DNA from: a virus
Virus record (IMG/VR): IMGVR_UViG_3300020433_000058
Location: 1-21,932 of that record
Direction: 5' to 3' (one strand)
Length of the DNA stretch: 21,932 nucleotides
Shown here: positions 6,943 to 17,322 of the stretch, piece by piece
Position numbering within the stretch: position 1 is the stretch's first letter
How the letters are laid out: each line of letters starts with the position of its first letter
The notes under the pieces: generated by a model
Database searches by the model: none
Seen by the model: the letters and a program-made list of their open reading frames with translations, nothing else
What the model was told of the DNA's origin: nothing
Program-made: the position numbers and the translations under genes

Positions 6943-6956
6943 ATACTATATAGTAT
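6943..6956. repeat. Perfect 14-bp palindrome at the sheath C / gp26-like junction
   Basis: ATACTATATAGTAT reads the same on both strands. It covers the stop codon of sheath C (TAG at 6946-6948) and ends against the GGAG that serves the gp26-like gene. It could be a dyad protein-binding site, a weak hairpin, or chance in AT-rich DNA. Confidence 0.5.
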
Positions 6957-9900
6957 TATTAATTATATCTACTTCATTTTGGTTTGTAAACTGTTTTATT
7001 TTATTTATTAAATTATTAATATTTAAATTAATAAAATTTTCAGGTCCAGCATCAAATAAAGATATACTAATCTGTCCATATACTATATTATTTAAATAGT
7101 TAGATTCTGAAGATTTATCTAAATCAGCTATATCTACATAAACTGAATAGTTTTTTATAACTCCATCTTCTACTAATCTACCTAAATAACTTTCTATTGC
7201 TAAACTAATTTGTATTTTAGAATTAAATAATATAGAATTTCTACTATTATTAGAAAATAATAAACTATTGTTTTGAACAATAGGTTGTCTTGTTAATATA
7301 TCAGTTAAATCTCTAATAATAGTTTGTTTTATTCTAACATTATGAAATAATCTCATAATACTCTTATTATTTTTAACTAAAGTATTACTTGACAATAATT
7401 TTAAACTTCTATCAGTAGTTAAAATACCAACAGGATTAATTGAAATGTCATATTTTTTAGTTTTTTCTAATAACGAGTCAAATTTATTATTATTGTAAAT
7501 ATAGTGTCTATTTAATACTGTATTATATGATACAAAGTCAGGTGAAAGTATATCTTCGCTATCCAAAGGCGTCTGAATTTCAGTTGATGCAATAGCATTA
7601 ATAGCTAAAATACTTGGCGGTAATATTAATCTTTCTACATTGTCTATAGATGCGTCGACACTATTTAACATAAATAAACTATATTCAGACTGTAAATATA
7701 AAGAAATAAAATCATCAATAGTTTTATCAGAACCTTGACTTGTCATATATTGAAGATCATCTCTTTCATCAATATATTCATCCGGTCTATTATTAGTATT
7801 TTTAAATAATATAGGATCTTTTAAATATGAATTTACATTACTGTAATTACCATTTTCTAAACTTGAATTATAAACAACTTCCGGAACATCAGCAATATAA
7901 GCAAATTGTTTACTGTTTGATTTATCTGATATCTTTCTTAGCAAATCAATATGAGATATGCCTGGCATACAGAAAACATCACAGAGTATATTTTCGTCAT
8001 TGATTATAATATCTGAAGCTTTATCATAAGCATCGTAAATCTGGCCTGTTTTAACTCCTGAAATTTCCTCCTCATATTCTCTTAAAACAGAAACTGAGTG
8101 ATTTCTTCTTTTGTGGTCATCTAAAATATTAAAGCCATCAAAGCCGCCATATGTCATTAAGTCAAAACTTAAAAATTTAGCGTGATATGAATCTCCTAAC
8201 GTGTCAGAACTTAATAATTCATCAACATTTACATATTTATACATAATATCATTAATATTTCCTATATTGTTAATGTTCCTTCCATCACGCTGATAAAATG
8301 CATAGTTCCACATACTTTTTATTTCAGATTCGTTATAAGAATATAATATTTTTTCTAAATGAAAAAACGAATTATATAAATCTATTTCGTTATCTTGTAA
8401 ATCTTCTATCCATACATTATTAATTTTATTTGCATAATCATTTCTAAAAAACTTTGAATAGTCTAAAAACTTTTGATAATGAAAATTATTGTAGTCTTTA
8501 TAAGTGTCAAATTTAATATTTCTTACATAACCTGAAATATTAACATCTTTAAACTCTTTATTTAATACATCATCAAATAGTACACCCCAATATCTGTCTC
8601 CAAAGTATACTTTATCTCCTTCTTTATTTGAAAGCAAATGATTACCAACAAAACTTAAAGGATTTTGTATTATCTTATTACTAAATGACCCTGGTTTATT
8701 TAAACTTGTCTCATCTATATTTAACCTAGGATAAGGCATAAATCCGCACGGAATTAAATCTGTGTTAATTATTCCGTCTTCTACATCATCATGAACTTCA
8801 ACATAAATGTAGTTATTTGTTTTTCTATAATCACCTTTAACTTCTAACTTATTTGTATCAAAATTAAAAAATTCACGTTCAGTACCAATAATATTACAAA
8901 TATAGTTTTCATCTGTAGGATTTAATGTTAAGTCGACAAATTCTTCAATCTTCGTAAAGACATTGTTTTTAAACTCAAACAACTCAATGTTAAACTTCGA
9001 CCAGTTTTCTCTTGTATTTGTAGAATTTACATCACCTTTTCTTCTAGGTTTTATTCTAAATCTAAATCTATTACCTGATTCACCATCGTCATAAGTAAAA
9101 AATCTAAATAACTTTATACAGCTTTTTCTTACTTGTGTTTTATCTGTATCAAGAATATTTTTTCTATTTGTCGGTTGTGATACTATCCATGGCGTTCTTG
9201 CTTTTTTAAACGACGACTTAAAGTTTTCATAATTAACTTGACCGGAGTTCCAACTATTATTACTTGTTGTTAAAAGATATTTGTTTTCATTTTCTTCTAT
9301 CTCTTTACTAAAACATTGTAAATTTCTAAATCTAGAATAAACATAGTGTCCTTTATTTAAAATCCACTCAAGATCTGTGTTTAAAGTATCAGTTTCAAAA
9401 GATTGATTTTCTTTGTCACTATAATACATTTGAATTACATTTTTTGAAGAATCTTTTAATCCTTGTATATAAATCATAGGATTTTTTAAAGTTGAAATGT
9501 TACTTCCTAAAAATGATGCTGCATTATTTAGTTTTGTTGAGAGTTCTTTTCTTTGTGAAATTATATTAACGTTATCTTTAATATCATCCTGTATATACAT
9601 TGAGACACCATGTGTAGTCATTATAACATCTGTAATTACTCCAATTGAATCAATACCAGGATCTAATGTAATACCTAATTGACCAATATAGTCTGAGTAT
9701 GGTGAAACATGATTTGTTGTATCAATATTTTCTACCATTGTTGTTAAAAAGTGAACTTTACCTTCGCTTCCTCCACTATTTGTGAATTTACTTTCACCTT
9801 TGCCATAATCTGAAATACTTCCACTTAAAACTAAGTCGCCAGAAATAAAACCAGCATTATTTGTATTAGGTGCTCCAAGAACTCTTACATAACTTGATTG

Positions 9901-10170
9901 AATTTTTCCGCTTTCAAACCAAACTCTAGCTGATATTGGTCCTATTTGCGTGCTCTGATCTTCAAAGTTACCAAAGACATTTTCCCAAGTATTTAAAAAA
10001 TCATCGCTTCTATCAAAAGAAGTAACTTGCTGGGGTACAAATGCTGGGCCTTTATCTGCTGTACCAACAATACATAGCGTTTCTTCTGTTAAAGAAACGA
10101 TTTGTTCTTCTTTAAATATTAAAGGTGTGCTAATAGAAGCACTTAATTGACTATTAATTATATTAGACAT
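6946..10170 (-). CDS. 18: Tail sheath protein C, divergent paralogue (1074 aa)
   Basis: A sheath protein by shared landmarks with its two neighbours: CIVGTADKGPAFVP at 33-46, WIVSQP near 328, KLFRFFTYDDGESGNRFRFR at 353-372, LNPTDENYICNIIGTEREFF at 416-435 and GGFDGFNILD in the third quarter. It is the most diverged of the three. The ITDY, PWFAPAG, FGQKT and ALDRxNVRRL motifs that sheaths A and B share toward the C-terminus are missing or unrecognisable. It is rich in Asn, Ile, Tyr and Lys, and its codons are more AT-rich by eye. The last beta strands (YGQISISLFD) appear to match the family C-terminus but are followed by an Asn-rich extension. It lies downstream of the tube gene, away from A and B. 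Its ribosome binding site and ATG are inside a 20-bp stem (10169-10239), so expression may be controlled separately. It may be a minor or end-of-tail sheath subunit; that is inference. Confidence 0.8.
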   Translation of the reverse strand: MSNIINSQLSASISTPLIFKEEQIVSLTEETLCIVGTADKGPAFVPQQVTSFDRSDDFLNTWENVFGNFEDQSTQIGPISARVWFESGKIQSSYVRVLGAPNTNNAGFISGDLVLSGSISDYGKGESKFTNSGGSEGKVHFLTTMVENIDTTNHVSPYSDYIGQLGITLDPGIDSIGVITDVIMTTHGVSMYIQDDIKDNVNIISQRKELSTKLNNAASFLGSNISTLKNPMIYIQGLKDSSKNVIQMYYSDKENQSFETDTLNTDLEWILNKGHYVYSRFRNLQCFSKEIEENENKYLLTTSNNSWNSGQVNYENFKSSFKKARTPWIVSQPTNRKNILDTDKTQVRKSCIKLFRFFTYDDGESGNRFRFRIKPRRKGDVNSTNTRENWSKFNIELFEFKNNVFTKIEEFVDLTLNPTDENYICNIIGTEREFFNFDTNKLEVKGDYRKTNNYIYVEVHDDVEDGIINTDLIPCGFMPYPRLNIDETSLNKPGSFSNKIIQNPLSFVGNHLLSNKEGDKVYFGDRYWGVLFDDVLNKEFKDVNISGYVRNIKFDTYKDYNNFHYQKFLDYSKFFRNDYANKINNVWIEDLQDNEIDLYNSFFHLEKILYSYNESEIKSMWNYAFYQRDGRNINNIGNINDIMYKYVNVDELLSSDTLGDSYHAKFLSFDLMTYGGFDGFNILDDHKRRNHSVSVLREYEEEISGVKTGQIYDAYDKASDIIINDENILCDVFCMPGISHIDLLRKISDKSNSKQFAYIADVPEVVYNSSLENGNYSNVNSYLKDPILFKNTNNRPDEYIDERDDLQYMTSQGSDKTIDDFISLYLQSEYSLFMLNSVDASIDNVERLILPPSILAINAIASTEIQTPLDSEDILSPDFVSYNTVLNRHYIYNNNKFDSLLEKTKKYDISINPVGILTTDRSLKLLSSNTLVKNNKSIMRLFHNVRIKQTIIRDLTDILTRQPIVQNNSLLFSNNSRNSILFNSKIQISLAIESYLGRLVEDGVIKNYSVYVDIADLDKSSESNYLNNIVYGQISISLFDAGPENFINLNINNLINKIKQFTNQNEVDIINNTI

Positions 10171-10239
10171 TTAATATCCTATTTTTGTCTTCTCGTATAT
10201 TATTATTTATTTAACAAGAACAAAAATAGGATATTAAAT
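10169..10239 (-). promoter_or_regulatory. Perfect 20-bp inverted repeat sequestering the sheath C ribosome binding site
   Basis: The arms 10169-10188 and 10220-10239 are exact reverse complements over 20 bp, separated by 31 bases. In the leftward mRNA the stem forms right after the tube stop codon (10241-10243). Its 3' arm holds the only Shine-Dalgarno of sheath C (ATAGGATATT) and the A and U of its AUG. Such an RNA should block initiation when the full stem is present. It has no U-run after the stem, so it does not look like an intrinsic terminator in this direction. A protein-binding or RNase III processing site is also possible. Confidence 0.8.
10204..10211 (-). promoter_or_regulatory. Late-promoter-like box in the hairpin loop upstream of sheath C
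   Basis: The coding strand reads AATAAATA, 7 of 8 matches to the T4 late -10 box TATAAATA. It lies in the loop of the 20-bp inverted repeat. RNA started a few bases downstream would lack the 5' arm, leaving the Shine-Dalgarno of sheath C free. AT-rich intergenic DNA makes such matches common, so this is a candidate only. Confidence 0.35.
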
Positions 10240-10240
10240 A

Positions 10241-10729
10241 TTAATATTGTAGAACGCAGTTATCAAATCTAATTGTTAAAGAAATATCTGCTGGATCTTC
10301 ACCGTCATAAGATAAATCACCAAAGTTTGCATTTGTTAAAAACGCGCCTTTAATGTCCCAAAGTTCTACAACAGTTCCTACAGGGTCAAGCATTTTAAGC
10401 TGGCAATCTCTTTTATAGAAATCTGCATAACCTGCTCTACCACTAACTGATTCATAGTGTGTTCTAATCCATTCCATTACTTGTTGAGCTCCACTAGGTG
10501 CAATTGGATCATGTAAAGTAACAGACATCGTATCAAATGTCATCTTACCTGCAACATATCTTTTTGCATTAATAAAGTTTATTTCTTGCTCGCCAATTGT
10601 AAAAGAAGGACGTGCTGCAGTTTTAAGGATAAATGCATCAATACCCTCAATTGCGAAAATCCAGCGATTCTTTCTTTTTGGCTCAAACTTATTCGGAATC
10701 ATTTCCGTGACTGAAAGTGTCTCTGCCAT
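10241..10729 (-). CDS. 19: Tail tube protein (gp19 family)
   Basis: 162 residues, against 163 for T4 gp19. It forms the inner tube through which DNA passes; hexameric rings stack around the tape measure and serve as scaffold for the sheath. The sequence fits the family: a short N-terminal arm with NKFEPKRKNRWIFAIEGID (13-31), ARPSFTIGEQEINFINAKRY, FDTMSVTLHDP, a helix with QQVMEWIRTHYESVSG, and the C-terminal strands GAFLTNANFGDLSYD and ISLTIRFDNCVLQY. It is the only tube gene in the window and lies between sheaths B and C, matching the T4 order 18-19 on its upstream side. AGGAG precedes the ATG at 10729. A 20-bp inverted repeat follows its stop codon at once and may limit reading into sheath C, or protect or process its 3' end. 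Confidence 0.93.
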   Translation of the reverse strand: MAETLSVTEMIPNKFEPKRKNRWIFAIEGIDAFILKTAARPSFTIGEQEINFINAKRYVAGKMTFDTMSVTLHDPIAPSGAQQVMEWIRTHYESVSGRAGYADFYKRDCQLKMLDPVGTVVELWDIKGAFLTNANFGDLSYDGEDPADISLTIRFDNCVLQY

Positions 10730-14274: not shown

Positions 14275-14289
14275 TATATCTATATATTA
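14275..14289 (-). repeat. 15-bp direct repeat in the sheath B leader, copy of 10757-10771
   Basis: The coding strand TAATATATAGATATA starts with the sheath A stop codon. The identical 15 bases start with the stop codon of sheath B at 10757-10771. Both lie about 40 bases upstream of the next ATG (sheath B here, the tube there). This may be a duplicated leader left by the sheath gene duplication, or a shared promoter element. Confidence 0.55.
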
Positions 14290-17200
14290 TGGAAATTCTA
14301 CACCTGAATTTGTAATTACAAAATCTATTGCAATAAATTCAACTGCTCTTGTTGGAACAATAATAATCTTACCGTTCAAACGATTATTATCAACATCTTC
14401 AGGAGTATTATTGGTATCATCCATTACTACTCTAAAATCTTCTATACCTTGATTTATTTGTATGCTTGATAGTTGACTAGTTGCACTTAAAATAAAGTTT
14501 TGACGAGTTGTATCATTATTTTGCTCAAACAATAGACCTTGAGCAATTAATCCAATTCTTCTTTTTACTTCCAAAACTAATCGTCTTACGTTAACTCTAT
14601 CTAAAGCTGTTCTTGCCAATTGAGAAGTTTTTTGTCCAAATATAACAAATTGTTTATTTGGGAAGTTAGCAATAGGATTAATACGTGCTTCATAAAGTGT
14701 ATCACGATCCTCTGCGTTTAATCTTACGTCAATAGAAGATATAGAATCTAAAGAACCTCTACTAAATCCTGCAGGAGCAAACCAGGGCTTTGATTCATTA
14801 TCAGTTTTTGCCAGTGCGCCTAAAGCCACAATCGAAGGAGAAACTTTTATAATTCTTCTACTATTTACAGCAGCTTCATCATCATCACCACTATCTAAAA
14901 CTTTTACGTCTGGAAAATATGATGATGTATATGATGAATTAACTTCTCTTAAGTTAAACTTGCTTGATGTAACTTCAACATCAGGTCTAGAAGATTCAAC
15001 ACCTCGAGAATCAACAAAGATTCTATTGTCATCAGCGTCAAATTGTTGAATATCCATTAAGTACAATGCTTTACCATAATCTTCAATTTTTTCTTTTACG
15101 TAATCTGTAATAAATGGATCTCGGATATTTGGTATTGCAAGAACATTATGATTCACAACCAGTTCATCTGTCATTATTCTTATAGCATTTTTATAAGAAG
15201 CAACAATGTTATTCTCGTCTTCAACACCTTGCATAATACCTGTACTATCATCAGTACCACTTAGAGCACTAGTAAATCCACCACTTCCAGCTTTACCATT
15301 TTCTTCAGTTGATGCAGATCTATCTGTCATAAAGAAAGAGTCTCTATCAAAAATATTTAATCCGTCAAAACCACCATGTAAAGGTGAAGTAAACTTCATC
15401 ATCAATGAATACTTGTTAAATTTCACAGGATCTTCAGCTAACATCTTTGCCAAAGAAACTCTGTTTGCGCCTGATTCAATATCATCGGTTGTACCTGCCA
15501 TTTTAATTAAATGATTTGCTGAATCGTACAAACTAGTAGAATCAGCGTCTGCGTTTCTTATATAAGCAGCATCTTTAAATACGTCGCTAATACTACCAGT
15601 AATTTGTGTTAAATCGTCTCCTTTAAGAGCTACTTTTGCCAAAGTAAATTTATTATTGTTATGCTTGTCAGATAGTGAACTTGAACTAATTACAGTTGAA
15701 TCGCTACCTAAAAACTTAGTGTAGTTAGAAATCAAGTGATTAAACTCAGTTCCTTTATTGGCATTGTTAATATCTTCAACTCTATGTGTCATTAAACCCC
15801 AGTGAAGATTTAAATTAACACTTTCAGAAGCTGAAGCTTCGCCTAAGAAAGTTTGCCCATATGATGATCCACCTGTTCTTATATCACCAACAGTCACCTT
15901 AAATCTAAATGGAAGTGGTGGCAGTACTGATCTTTGTAATCCTACACCATCACTTGGATCAGTCATAAATGTTGTAGAAGCACCTGATTGACCAGCATCT
16001 TTACCGTCTGAATTTGAAAGTAAAGAAGGTAATCCTCTGTAACCAAAAGGCAATGCTGACTCAGGAACTTCACTTCTTAACACATCATCACTCATTATAA
16101 TTCTTACACGAGTTGACTTATTTTCATAAGAACCTTCACGTACTAGTCTTCTTTCATCTTCATCAGCAGCGTCAAAGTCAAAATAAACTTTTTCATCACC
16201 AATAACTTTTGCAACAAAATTTGATGCATTAGGATCTAAAGAACATTGATTAAATACTTCATAAATAATCTGTGAATCATCTGTGTCCATTATGTCACGA
16301 ACAACAACACTAAATGTTCCGAAGTTATTTGTTGGATCTGTGCTTGCTTTAAGATTTTTTATAGAAATCTTATATTTTCCGCTAGCAAAAGTACCATCAT
16401 CTAAAGATTCAAAATGAAAAAGATCATACTCTTTTTGGCCAAAAGGTTGTGAAATAAACTTTGTTGTTTGCGGAGCATTAAATCTACTAGAAAAGTTACC
16501 AAACTTTGTTGCATTAGTTGCATCACCACTTAATACAGCAACTTTTCCTCCAACAACTTGAGCAACTTCCTTGTCAACAGGAAAATGTGCAAACAAATAA
16601 TGTTTTTCACTTTCCAAAGAAAATGCATCAGTATTTAAAACTTTAGAAATGTATTTATCACTACTAGGATCTAAAGAGACTTGTAAAATATCAGTATTTG
16701 CAGAACCGTCTGTAAATCTAATATTAAATAAACCTGAAGATGCATTAACTGAGCTAGATGAAAAGTCTGTAGATGCTGCTGCAGAAATTACCATTTTATA
16801 ATCTTTATGTGTAAAGATCATTGCACGAATTAATTCAACAGTTGCATCTGCTGCTGTAGAAGCTCCTGTTGCTAAATCTAAATTAAAGTCTGTCTTATGT
16901 GAATCGTTATCATTAAAGTTTGCTAAACCTAAATGTTCTCCAACATTAACTGTATGTTGTGCTGATATAAAGTGAGGTGATCCACTAAAATTACTGCCGG
17001 CAGCATTTTTTGGGCTCATTTGAAATCCAGCATTTTGACCGTCAACTAATCCACTACCTAAAGTTCTACAAAAAGTTAGTGCTTTACCATTGTTTCTAAA
17101 AAATTCTGCCATTGCATGACCACTTAATCTATTGCGGTCAGGGGCTCCAAAGATTCGAATGTATTCTTCACGTGAAGTAACTGTAGTTGGTACAAATGCA

Positions 17201-17322
17201 GGTCCTCTTTCTGATGGACCTATTAAACCGACAGGCGTTGCATTATTTCTAAATAAAGGCCTGCTAATTACTTCTATTTCTCTTTCAAAGAATCCTGGAG
17301 ACTTGAATGTCTGCTCTGCCAT
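14287..17322 (-). CDS. 18: Tail sheath protein A (1011 aa)
   Basis: First of three sheath paralogues, directly downstream of gp15 as expected for a sheath gene. The landmarks are VGLIGPSERGPAFVP at 31-45, LDPSSDKYISKVLNTD at 217-232, LDPNASNFVAKVIGDE at 362-377, GGFDGLNIFD, LAIPNIRDPFITDY, PWFAPAGFSRG, FGQKT, ALDRVNVRRL and the final strand EFIAIDFVITNS. These match sheath B nearly point for point, but the proteins differ over most other positions, so the duplication is old. An acidic stretch (DSGDDDEAAVNSRR) lies between LREVNSSYTSSYFPD and the APAG region. It lacks the 160-residue insert of sheath B. AGGAG lies before the ATG at 17322; a GATAAATA late-promoter-like box lies about 58 bases upstream. 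It is a good candidate for the main sheath subunit, but A and B cannot be ranked from sequence. Confidence 0.92.
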   Translation of the reverse strand: MAEQTFKSPGFFEREIEVISRPLFRNNATPVGLIGPSERGPAFVPTTVTSREEYIRIFGAPDRNRLSGHAMAEFFRNNGKALTFCRTLGSGLVDGQNAGFQMSPKNAAGSNFSGSPHFISAQHTVNVGEHLGLANFNDNDSHKTDFNLDLATGASTAADATVELIRAMIFTHKDYKMVISAAASTDFSSSSVNASSGLFNIRFTDGSANTDILQVSLDPSSDKYISKVLNTDAFSLESEKHYLFAHFPVDKEVAQVVGGKVAVLSGDATNATKFGNFSSRFNAPQTTKFISQPFGQKEYDLFHFESLDDGTFASGKYKISIKNLKASTDPTNNFGTFSVVVRDIMDTDDSQIIYEVFNQCSLDPNASNFVAKVIGDEKVYFDFDAADEDERRLVREGSYENKSTRVRIIMSDDVLRSEVPESALPFGYRGLPSLLSNSDGKDAGQSGASTTFMTDPSDGVGLQRSVLPPLPFRFKVTVGDIRTGGSSYGQTFLGEASASESVNLNLHWGLMTHRVEDINNANKGTEFNHLISNYTKFLGSDSTVISSSSLSDKHNNNKFTLAKVALKGDDLTQITGSISDVFKDAAYIRNADADSTSLYDSANHLIKMAGTTDDIESGANRVSLAKMLAEDPVKFNKYSLMMKFTSPLHGGFDGLNIFDRDSFFMTDRSASTEENGKAGSGGFTSALSGTDDSTGIMQGVEDENNIVASYKNAIRIMTDELVVNHNVLAIPNIRDPFITDYVKEKIEDYGKALYLMDIQQFDADDNRIFVDSRGVESSRPDVEVTSSKFNLREVNSSYTSSYFPDVKVLDSGDDDEAAVNSRRIIKVSPSIVALGALAKTDNESKPWFAPAGFSRGSLDSISSIDVRLNAEDRDTLYEARINPIANFPNKQFVIFGQKTSQLARTALDRVNVRRLVLEVKRRIGLIAQGLLFEQNNDTTRQNFILSATSQLSSIQINQGIEDFRVVMDDTNNTPEDVDNNRLNGKIIIVPTRAVEFIAIDFVITNSGVEFP

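Follow-up and report, generated by a model that had tools for sequence, protein, structure and literature searches.

How is a third tail sheath gene translated when the DNA before it folds, at the RNA level, into a hairpin that covers its own start? The question is raised by a 22-kb virus fragment (the window, 21,932 nucleotides at its full length), in which the tail genes are read from the minus strand in the order gp15-like protein, sheath A, sheath B, tube, sheath C and baseplate genes. The tube was recognised through PHROG models, its match to Pfam gp19 (E 2e-4) falling short of the cut-off. On its own, sheath C of the window matched neither PHROG nor Pfam models; a profile built from ten relatives was aligned by hhalign across 887 columns with sheath B (E 6e-41) and across 699 columns with sheath A (E 2e-18), which justifies the name "sheath" and bears out the original prediction that the gene is a sheath paralogue. 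Structure prediction of sheath C gave a mean pLDDT of 32, and its identity as a sheath rests on the profile comparison. All three sheath paralogues in the window are very large, and relatives have sheath B open frames of up to ~1400-1630 aa. The features of the locus, in the order of transcription, are as follows.

14287-17322, minus strand: sheath A, 1011 aa
10769-14248, minus strand: sheath B, 1159 aa
10730-10768, minus strand: tube leader with TAATATATAGATATATAAAAAG, proposed tube promoter element, conserved in relatives
10241-10729, minus strand: tail tube gene (gp19-like), upstream neighbour of sheath C; phrog_4542 (E 3e-28) and phrog_45
10220-10239, minus strand: 5' arm (anti-SD, anti-AUG), directly 3' of the tube stop codon; inverted repeat, arms covarying across 22 relatives
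10214-10219, minus strand: 6-bp inner helix, 5' side; minimum-energy fold
10204-10211, minus strand: AATAAATA in the apical loop, putative promoter-like box, first part of the conserved loop element
10191-10196, minus strand: 6-bp inner helix, 3' side, above a 2-nt bulge, partner of 10214-10219; minimum-energy fold
10169-10188, minus strand: 3' arm, with the Shine-Dalgarno sequence (SD) and the AU of the sheath C AUG; inverted repeat, minimum-energy fold
10177-10180, minus strand: SD of sheath C, AGGA, 10 nt before the AUG; read from the sequence
10168-10170, minus strand: sheath C start codon AUG; read from the sequence
6946-10170, minus strand: sheath C, third sheath paralogue and putatively gated gene, 1074 aa; hhalign to sheaths B and A

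The 70-bp gap between tube and sheath C lies almost wholly within a perfect 20-bp inverted repeat, whose arms (10169-10188 and 10220-10239) are 31 nt apart and complementary at 20 of 20 positions; among the 21 inverted repeats listed in the window, this is the only fully complementary pair. The RNA fold calculation that the original prediction had called for gave a stable structure, with a fold energy of -28.7 kcal/mol where shuffled sequences averaged -9.1 (z -7.9; z -6.3 for a wider stretch of 131 nt), and the predicted perfect hairpin over the sheath C start was thereby confirmed. In the minimum-energy fold two extra outer pairs bring the entire AUG into the stem, and the apical loop comprises 17 nt (10197-10213). 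The hairpin matched none of the Rfam families at the gathering score.

Occlusion of the start and covariation of the arms

Opening the region from SD to AUG has a computed cost of 21.2 kcal/mol in RNA read through from upstream, versus 5.2 kcal/mol in RNA that starts in the loop, the range at 11 other genes of the window being 2.6-10.9 kcal/mol. These values agree with what had been proposed for the two messages, namely that the SD and part of the AUG are hidden in read-through RNA and that RNA started in the loop, lacking the 5' arm, is translatable, in so far as the computed occlusion is lost. The computed opening energy is lower for the loop-start RNA in every listed main-clade relative as well. 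In a 239.5-kb relative (G001), sheath C ranks second of 228 genes with 19.0 kcal/mol, the median being 4.4, and five genes reach 13 kcal/mol versus the 0.4 expected from shuffled leaders.

Viral-contig searches with the tube protein and the sheath C alignment as queries supplied the relatives, about two dozen marine contigs in which the tube is followed by a homologue of the third sheath gene. Sheath C of the window alone, used as query, found no relatives, an exact search of viral contigs with the 3' arm plus ATG gave no match, and genome contigs yielded no relatives. A hairpin was found at the sheath start in every representative checked, with z values of -3.7 to -8.2 in the main clade. In an alignment of 22 sequences, 92.1% of the cells of a 16-bp helix are paired, and changes on both sides were found at 7 pairs, in 20 cells. 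None of 500 shuffles, which leave some relatedness in, matched the observed paired percentage, the number of double-change cells or the covariation score. When the partner was shifted by 1-3 columns, a control that retains relatedness, pairing fell to only 37-50%. The compensating changes in the two arms that the hairpin had been expected to show in relatives are therefore present. Moreover, the cells of this helix include 23 G-U versus 5 A-C combinations, which indicates that the sense RNA, and not the DNA or the opposite strand, is the folded molecule. The conclusion that the hairpin has been selected as RNA, and with it the fold of the gated RNA, is strongly supported.

The sequences of the arms vary freely among the relatives, and the loop columns AATA are near-invariant. 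A more distant relative (L040) has a 21-bp hairpin of unrelated sequence at the same place (z -6.3). The stem is in a different register in L099-L101, with the box itself inside the 5' arm, and several relatives (L009, L010 and L099) have stems of only 12-15 bp. In a separate lineage (L049:6490-6605 and L060:3206-3320), an exact TATAAATA lies at the loop edge of an SD hairpin with a shorter, 9-bp stem.

Hairpins and terminators after the tube gene

Where the third sheath gene has no such hairpin, an intrinsic terminator nearly always follows the tube. In 16 representative hairpin loci the SD is occluded (median opening energy 15.9 kcal/mol) and there is no terminator, whereas in 16 terminator loci the SD is mostly open (median 4.5 kcal/mol); the difference has a P-value of 1e-4, for loci that are not independent of each other. 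L012 is an exception that has both a hairpin and a terminator, and L030 and L031 carry a G+C-poor terminator-like hairpin, uncounted by the terminator scan. A weakly supported tree of the tube calls for two changes of the hairpin state, in a large clade and in L040, and a single origin is possible. The exchange of hairpin and terminator suggests a function: both structures probably insulate the third sheath gene from tube transcripts and so keep it independent of them.

The loop element as a candidate promoter

The motif ATAAATA occurs in 10 of the 16 representative loops, versus 1.6 in shuffles (maximum 7 in 500 shuffles), and on the opposite strand in only one of the 16. With a matrix derived from the tube and sheath B leaders, the loops outscore their shuffled versions (6/500). 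Many loops read ATAAATAGTTATATAA or near it, and the sheath B leaders read AATAGTTATAAATA or ATATAGATATAA, a likeness from which one element seems to be common to both; an element similar to the TAATATATAGATATATAAAAAG of the tube leader also precedes sheath B. In several lineages the conserved loop element is ATAAATAGTTATATAA rather than TATAAATA, and in L010, L065 and L098 the box is weak or absent. Within the window, TATAAATA and AATAAATA are no commoner than expected by chance, so that the box proves nothing unless the relatives are considered with it. Among fifty listed T4 late promoters, A replaces T at -13 in nine (PMC2988020), which makes AATAAATA a natural variant by the standards of T4.

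Upstream of genes, TATAAATA is not enriched on the coding strand (11 sense versus 17 antisense in G001, 8 versus 11 in a second long relative, G002). The gp55 models phrog_234 and phrog_12791 matched nothing in the relatives, phrog_234 having matched no control genome either, and de novo motifs upstream of G001 and G002 genes reflected coding bias or an early-type promoter, with no late consensus. For these reasons promoter function and the start site are what we infer from the loop element, whose identification as a promoter is moderately supported. Of the late-promoter-like box originally placed in the loop, a conserved and strand-specific element was thus upheld; its late character drew no backing from a strand bias of TATAAATA or from a gp55 in the relatives.

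In two long relatives there is a gene for an RpoD-like sigma factor whose sequence stops short of region 4.2, by which the -35 is read; such a factor fits a loop element lacking a -35. In T4, gp55 together with gp33 has been termed a split sigma (PMC2988020), and minimal helix-turn-helix sigma factors have been described for group 2 jumbo phages in a review (PMC7824862). The sigma factor of G001 is apparently itself split: the gene at L128:1075-1824 (minus strand) covers regions 1.2-4.1 and stops ahead of the helix-turn-helix that reads the -35, and an 87-aa gene ~158 kb away, at L118:4203-4466 (plus strand), continues the sigma profile, the two pieces covering positions 429-692 and 693-738 of phrog_351. 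The 87-aa product matches region 4.2 of SigA/RpoD in solved structures. The sigma gene of G002 lies at L129:1369-2133, and G009 also has a separate small match.

The same 87-aa gene has the most occluded SD of all 228 in G001 (20.5 kcal/mol), in a hairpin at L118:4150-4205 (plus strand) whose loop holds TATAATA and ATAAATA, suggesting a gate of the same type on a transcription factor. Further long SD hairpins were seen at the gene starts L110:10446, L117:7075, L112:3645 and L111:12622, the genes concerned being a 110-codon gene, a 127-codon gene, a methyltransferase gene and a 790-codon gene, the last with a divergent neighbour that has a mirror-image leader. A strong early-type promoter (GTGTAAAT, ~17 nt, TATAATA) was found before ~20 genes and on the sense strand only (8-mer, 11 versus 0), at L119, L120, L109 and L112 of G001 and at L122-L126 of G002; the sheath and tube leaders are without it.

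Precedents, competing explanations and sheath dosage

More likely than not, the hairpin gates translation in cis, in the manner of T4 gene e, and sheath C is made only from RNA starting in the loop; of the mechanisms considered, this one, put forward in the original prediction, is the most likely. In RNA running on from the sheath and tube genes, the 5' arm would pair with the sheath C start, SD and AUG alike, and would thereby block the 30S subunit. A phage promoter consisting of a -10 only, formed by the conserved AT element, would start RNA inside the loop, and this RNA, without the 5' arm, would be translated. The gate would thereby unlink the output of sheath C from the abundant tube message, doing the same job as the terminator in related phages.

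In T4, read-through RNA of gene e, which encodes lysozyme, is translated about 100-fold less than RNA from its late start (PMC3014915). Our calculation, applied to gene e, gave an opening energy of 15.1 kcal/mol and placed TATAAATA in the loop, so that the likeness to a T4 e-type layout asserted by the original prediction withstood this comparison. In both cases the SD lies in the 3' arm, with a late-promoter box in the e loop and a promoter-like box here; the sheath C stem (20 bp) is longer than that of e, and its box is AATAAATA or ATAAATAGTTATATAA, not TATAAATA. Gene e is gated against early read-through, whereas the genes upstream of sheath C are structural genes of late type. T4 soc, I-TevI, I-TevII, I-TevIII and segB and Aeh1 mobE likewise have a ribosome-binding site that is hidden in read-through RNA, and a middle or late promoter a short way upstream of the gene (PMC2988022). 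Soc is an accessory capsid protein and the others are homing endonucleases, mostly in early or middle units; this set includes no tail-sheath paralogue. Among T4 tail genes, 25 and 38, with their split translation starts, also begin with a conserved stem (PMC3014915); it is placed between SD and AUG and aids translation, whereas the sheath C hairpin covers both and blocks it. Gene 25, whose stem enhances translation (PMC3014915), was therefore dropped as a structural-gene precedent. The sheath C hairpin would be a control of the e, soc and I-TevI type, new in lying within a late operon.

Part of this layout is shared with translational coupling. In coupling of the RNA phage replicase type, the start of the downstream gene is hidden in a hairpin that has the stop codon of the upstream gene at its base, as it has the tube stop here. 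The hairpin would then block free initiation, a ribosome ending at the tube stop would cover the 5' arm and free the SD, and sheath C would be translated from the same message at a fixed lower ratio to the tube, with no need of a loop promoter. The 5' arm indeed begins 1 nt past the tube stop in the window and its close relatives, and with 12 nt past this stop masked, the opening energy in the window is 4.5 instead of 20.8 kcal/mol, and it falls likewise to about 2-4 kcal/mol in L001, L084, L004, L007, L002, L006 and L033. With such a modelled stop-codon ribosome, however, the SD stays occluded in about half of the relatives, at 10.6-17.8 kcal/mol in L003, L094, L005, L009, L097, L088 and L047, in which the arm begins further on or the stem is longer. 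The loop element is conserved but the spacing from stop to arm is not, and coupling leaves the strand specificity of that element, the exchange with terminators and the family-wide conservation unexplained. As the general explanation it is unlikely; it is a serious rival in the window's own subclade, where it may add to the control.

We find it improbable that the gate is opened after transcription, by nuclease processing (RNase III on the stem or an RNase E-type enzyme on the AU-rich loop) or by a phage protein, for instance that of a sheath or the tube, that binds the hairpin as a feedback operator. The structure is conserved, and a stem of at least 20 bp with an AU-rich single-stranded loop is, from general knowledge, a plausible nuclease substrate; but the stems of 12-15 bp noted above are short for RNase III, cleavage in the loop would leave the arms paired, and the freely changing arms and the unrelated stem of L040 argue against a protein that recognises a specific sequence in the stem. 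It would be very surprising if the hairpin were a terminator or attenuator, or if the repeat had arisen by chance and had no role. Hairpins after the tube in other relatives are terminators, but this stem has no U-run after it and is not listed by the terminator scan, and chance is ruled out by the compensating changes, the arms moreover always including the sheath C SD. An intrinsic terminator and a chance repeat were rejected on these grounds, and a known Rfam family for want of a match.

To our knowledge, sheath and tube are late in all known T4-like phages. Because sheath A, sheath B and tube upstream are of late type, the classical reason for a gate, early read-through, may not apply, and a different timing of sheath C is not directly supported. 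Of the two outcomes first envisaged, expression at a different time or in a lower amount, the timing is thus unsupported, and a lower or independent dosage is the better reading. A more speculative extension, which we offer with considerable doubt, is that hairpin gate and terminator are interchangeable insulators that leave a third sheath, probably minor or specialised, under separate control of its dosage within a single late tail operon, and that the gate may sense tube translation or be subject to feedback by a tail protein, setting the ratio of sheath isoforms in the tail.

These results extend a T4 control principle to a sheath paralogue in uncultured large marine phages, inside a late operon, with covariation as strong evidence for the RNA fold. 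They suggest that sheaths A, B and C are produced in unequal amounts and under more than one control, which makes distinct roles of the sheaths in the tail testable.
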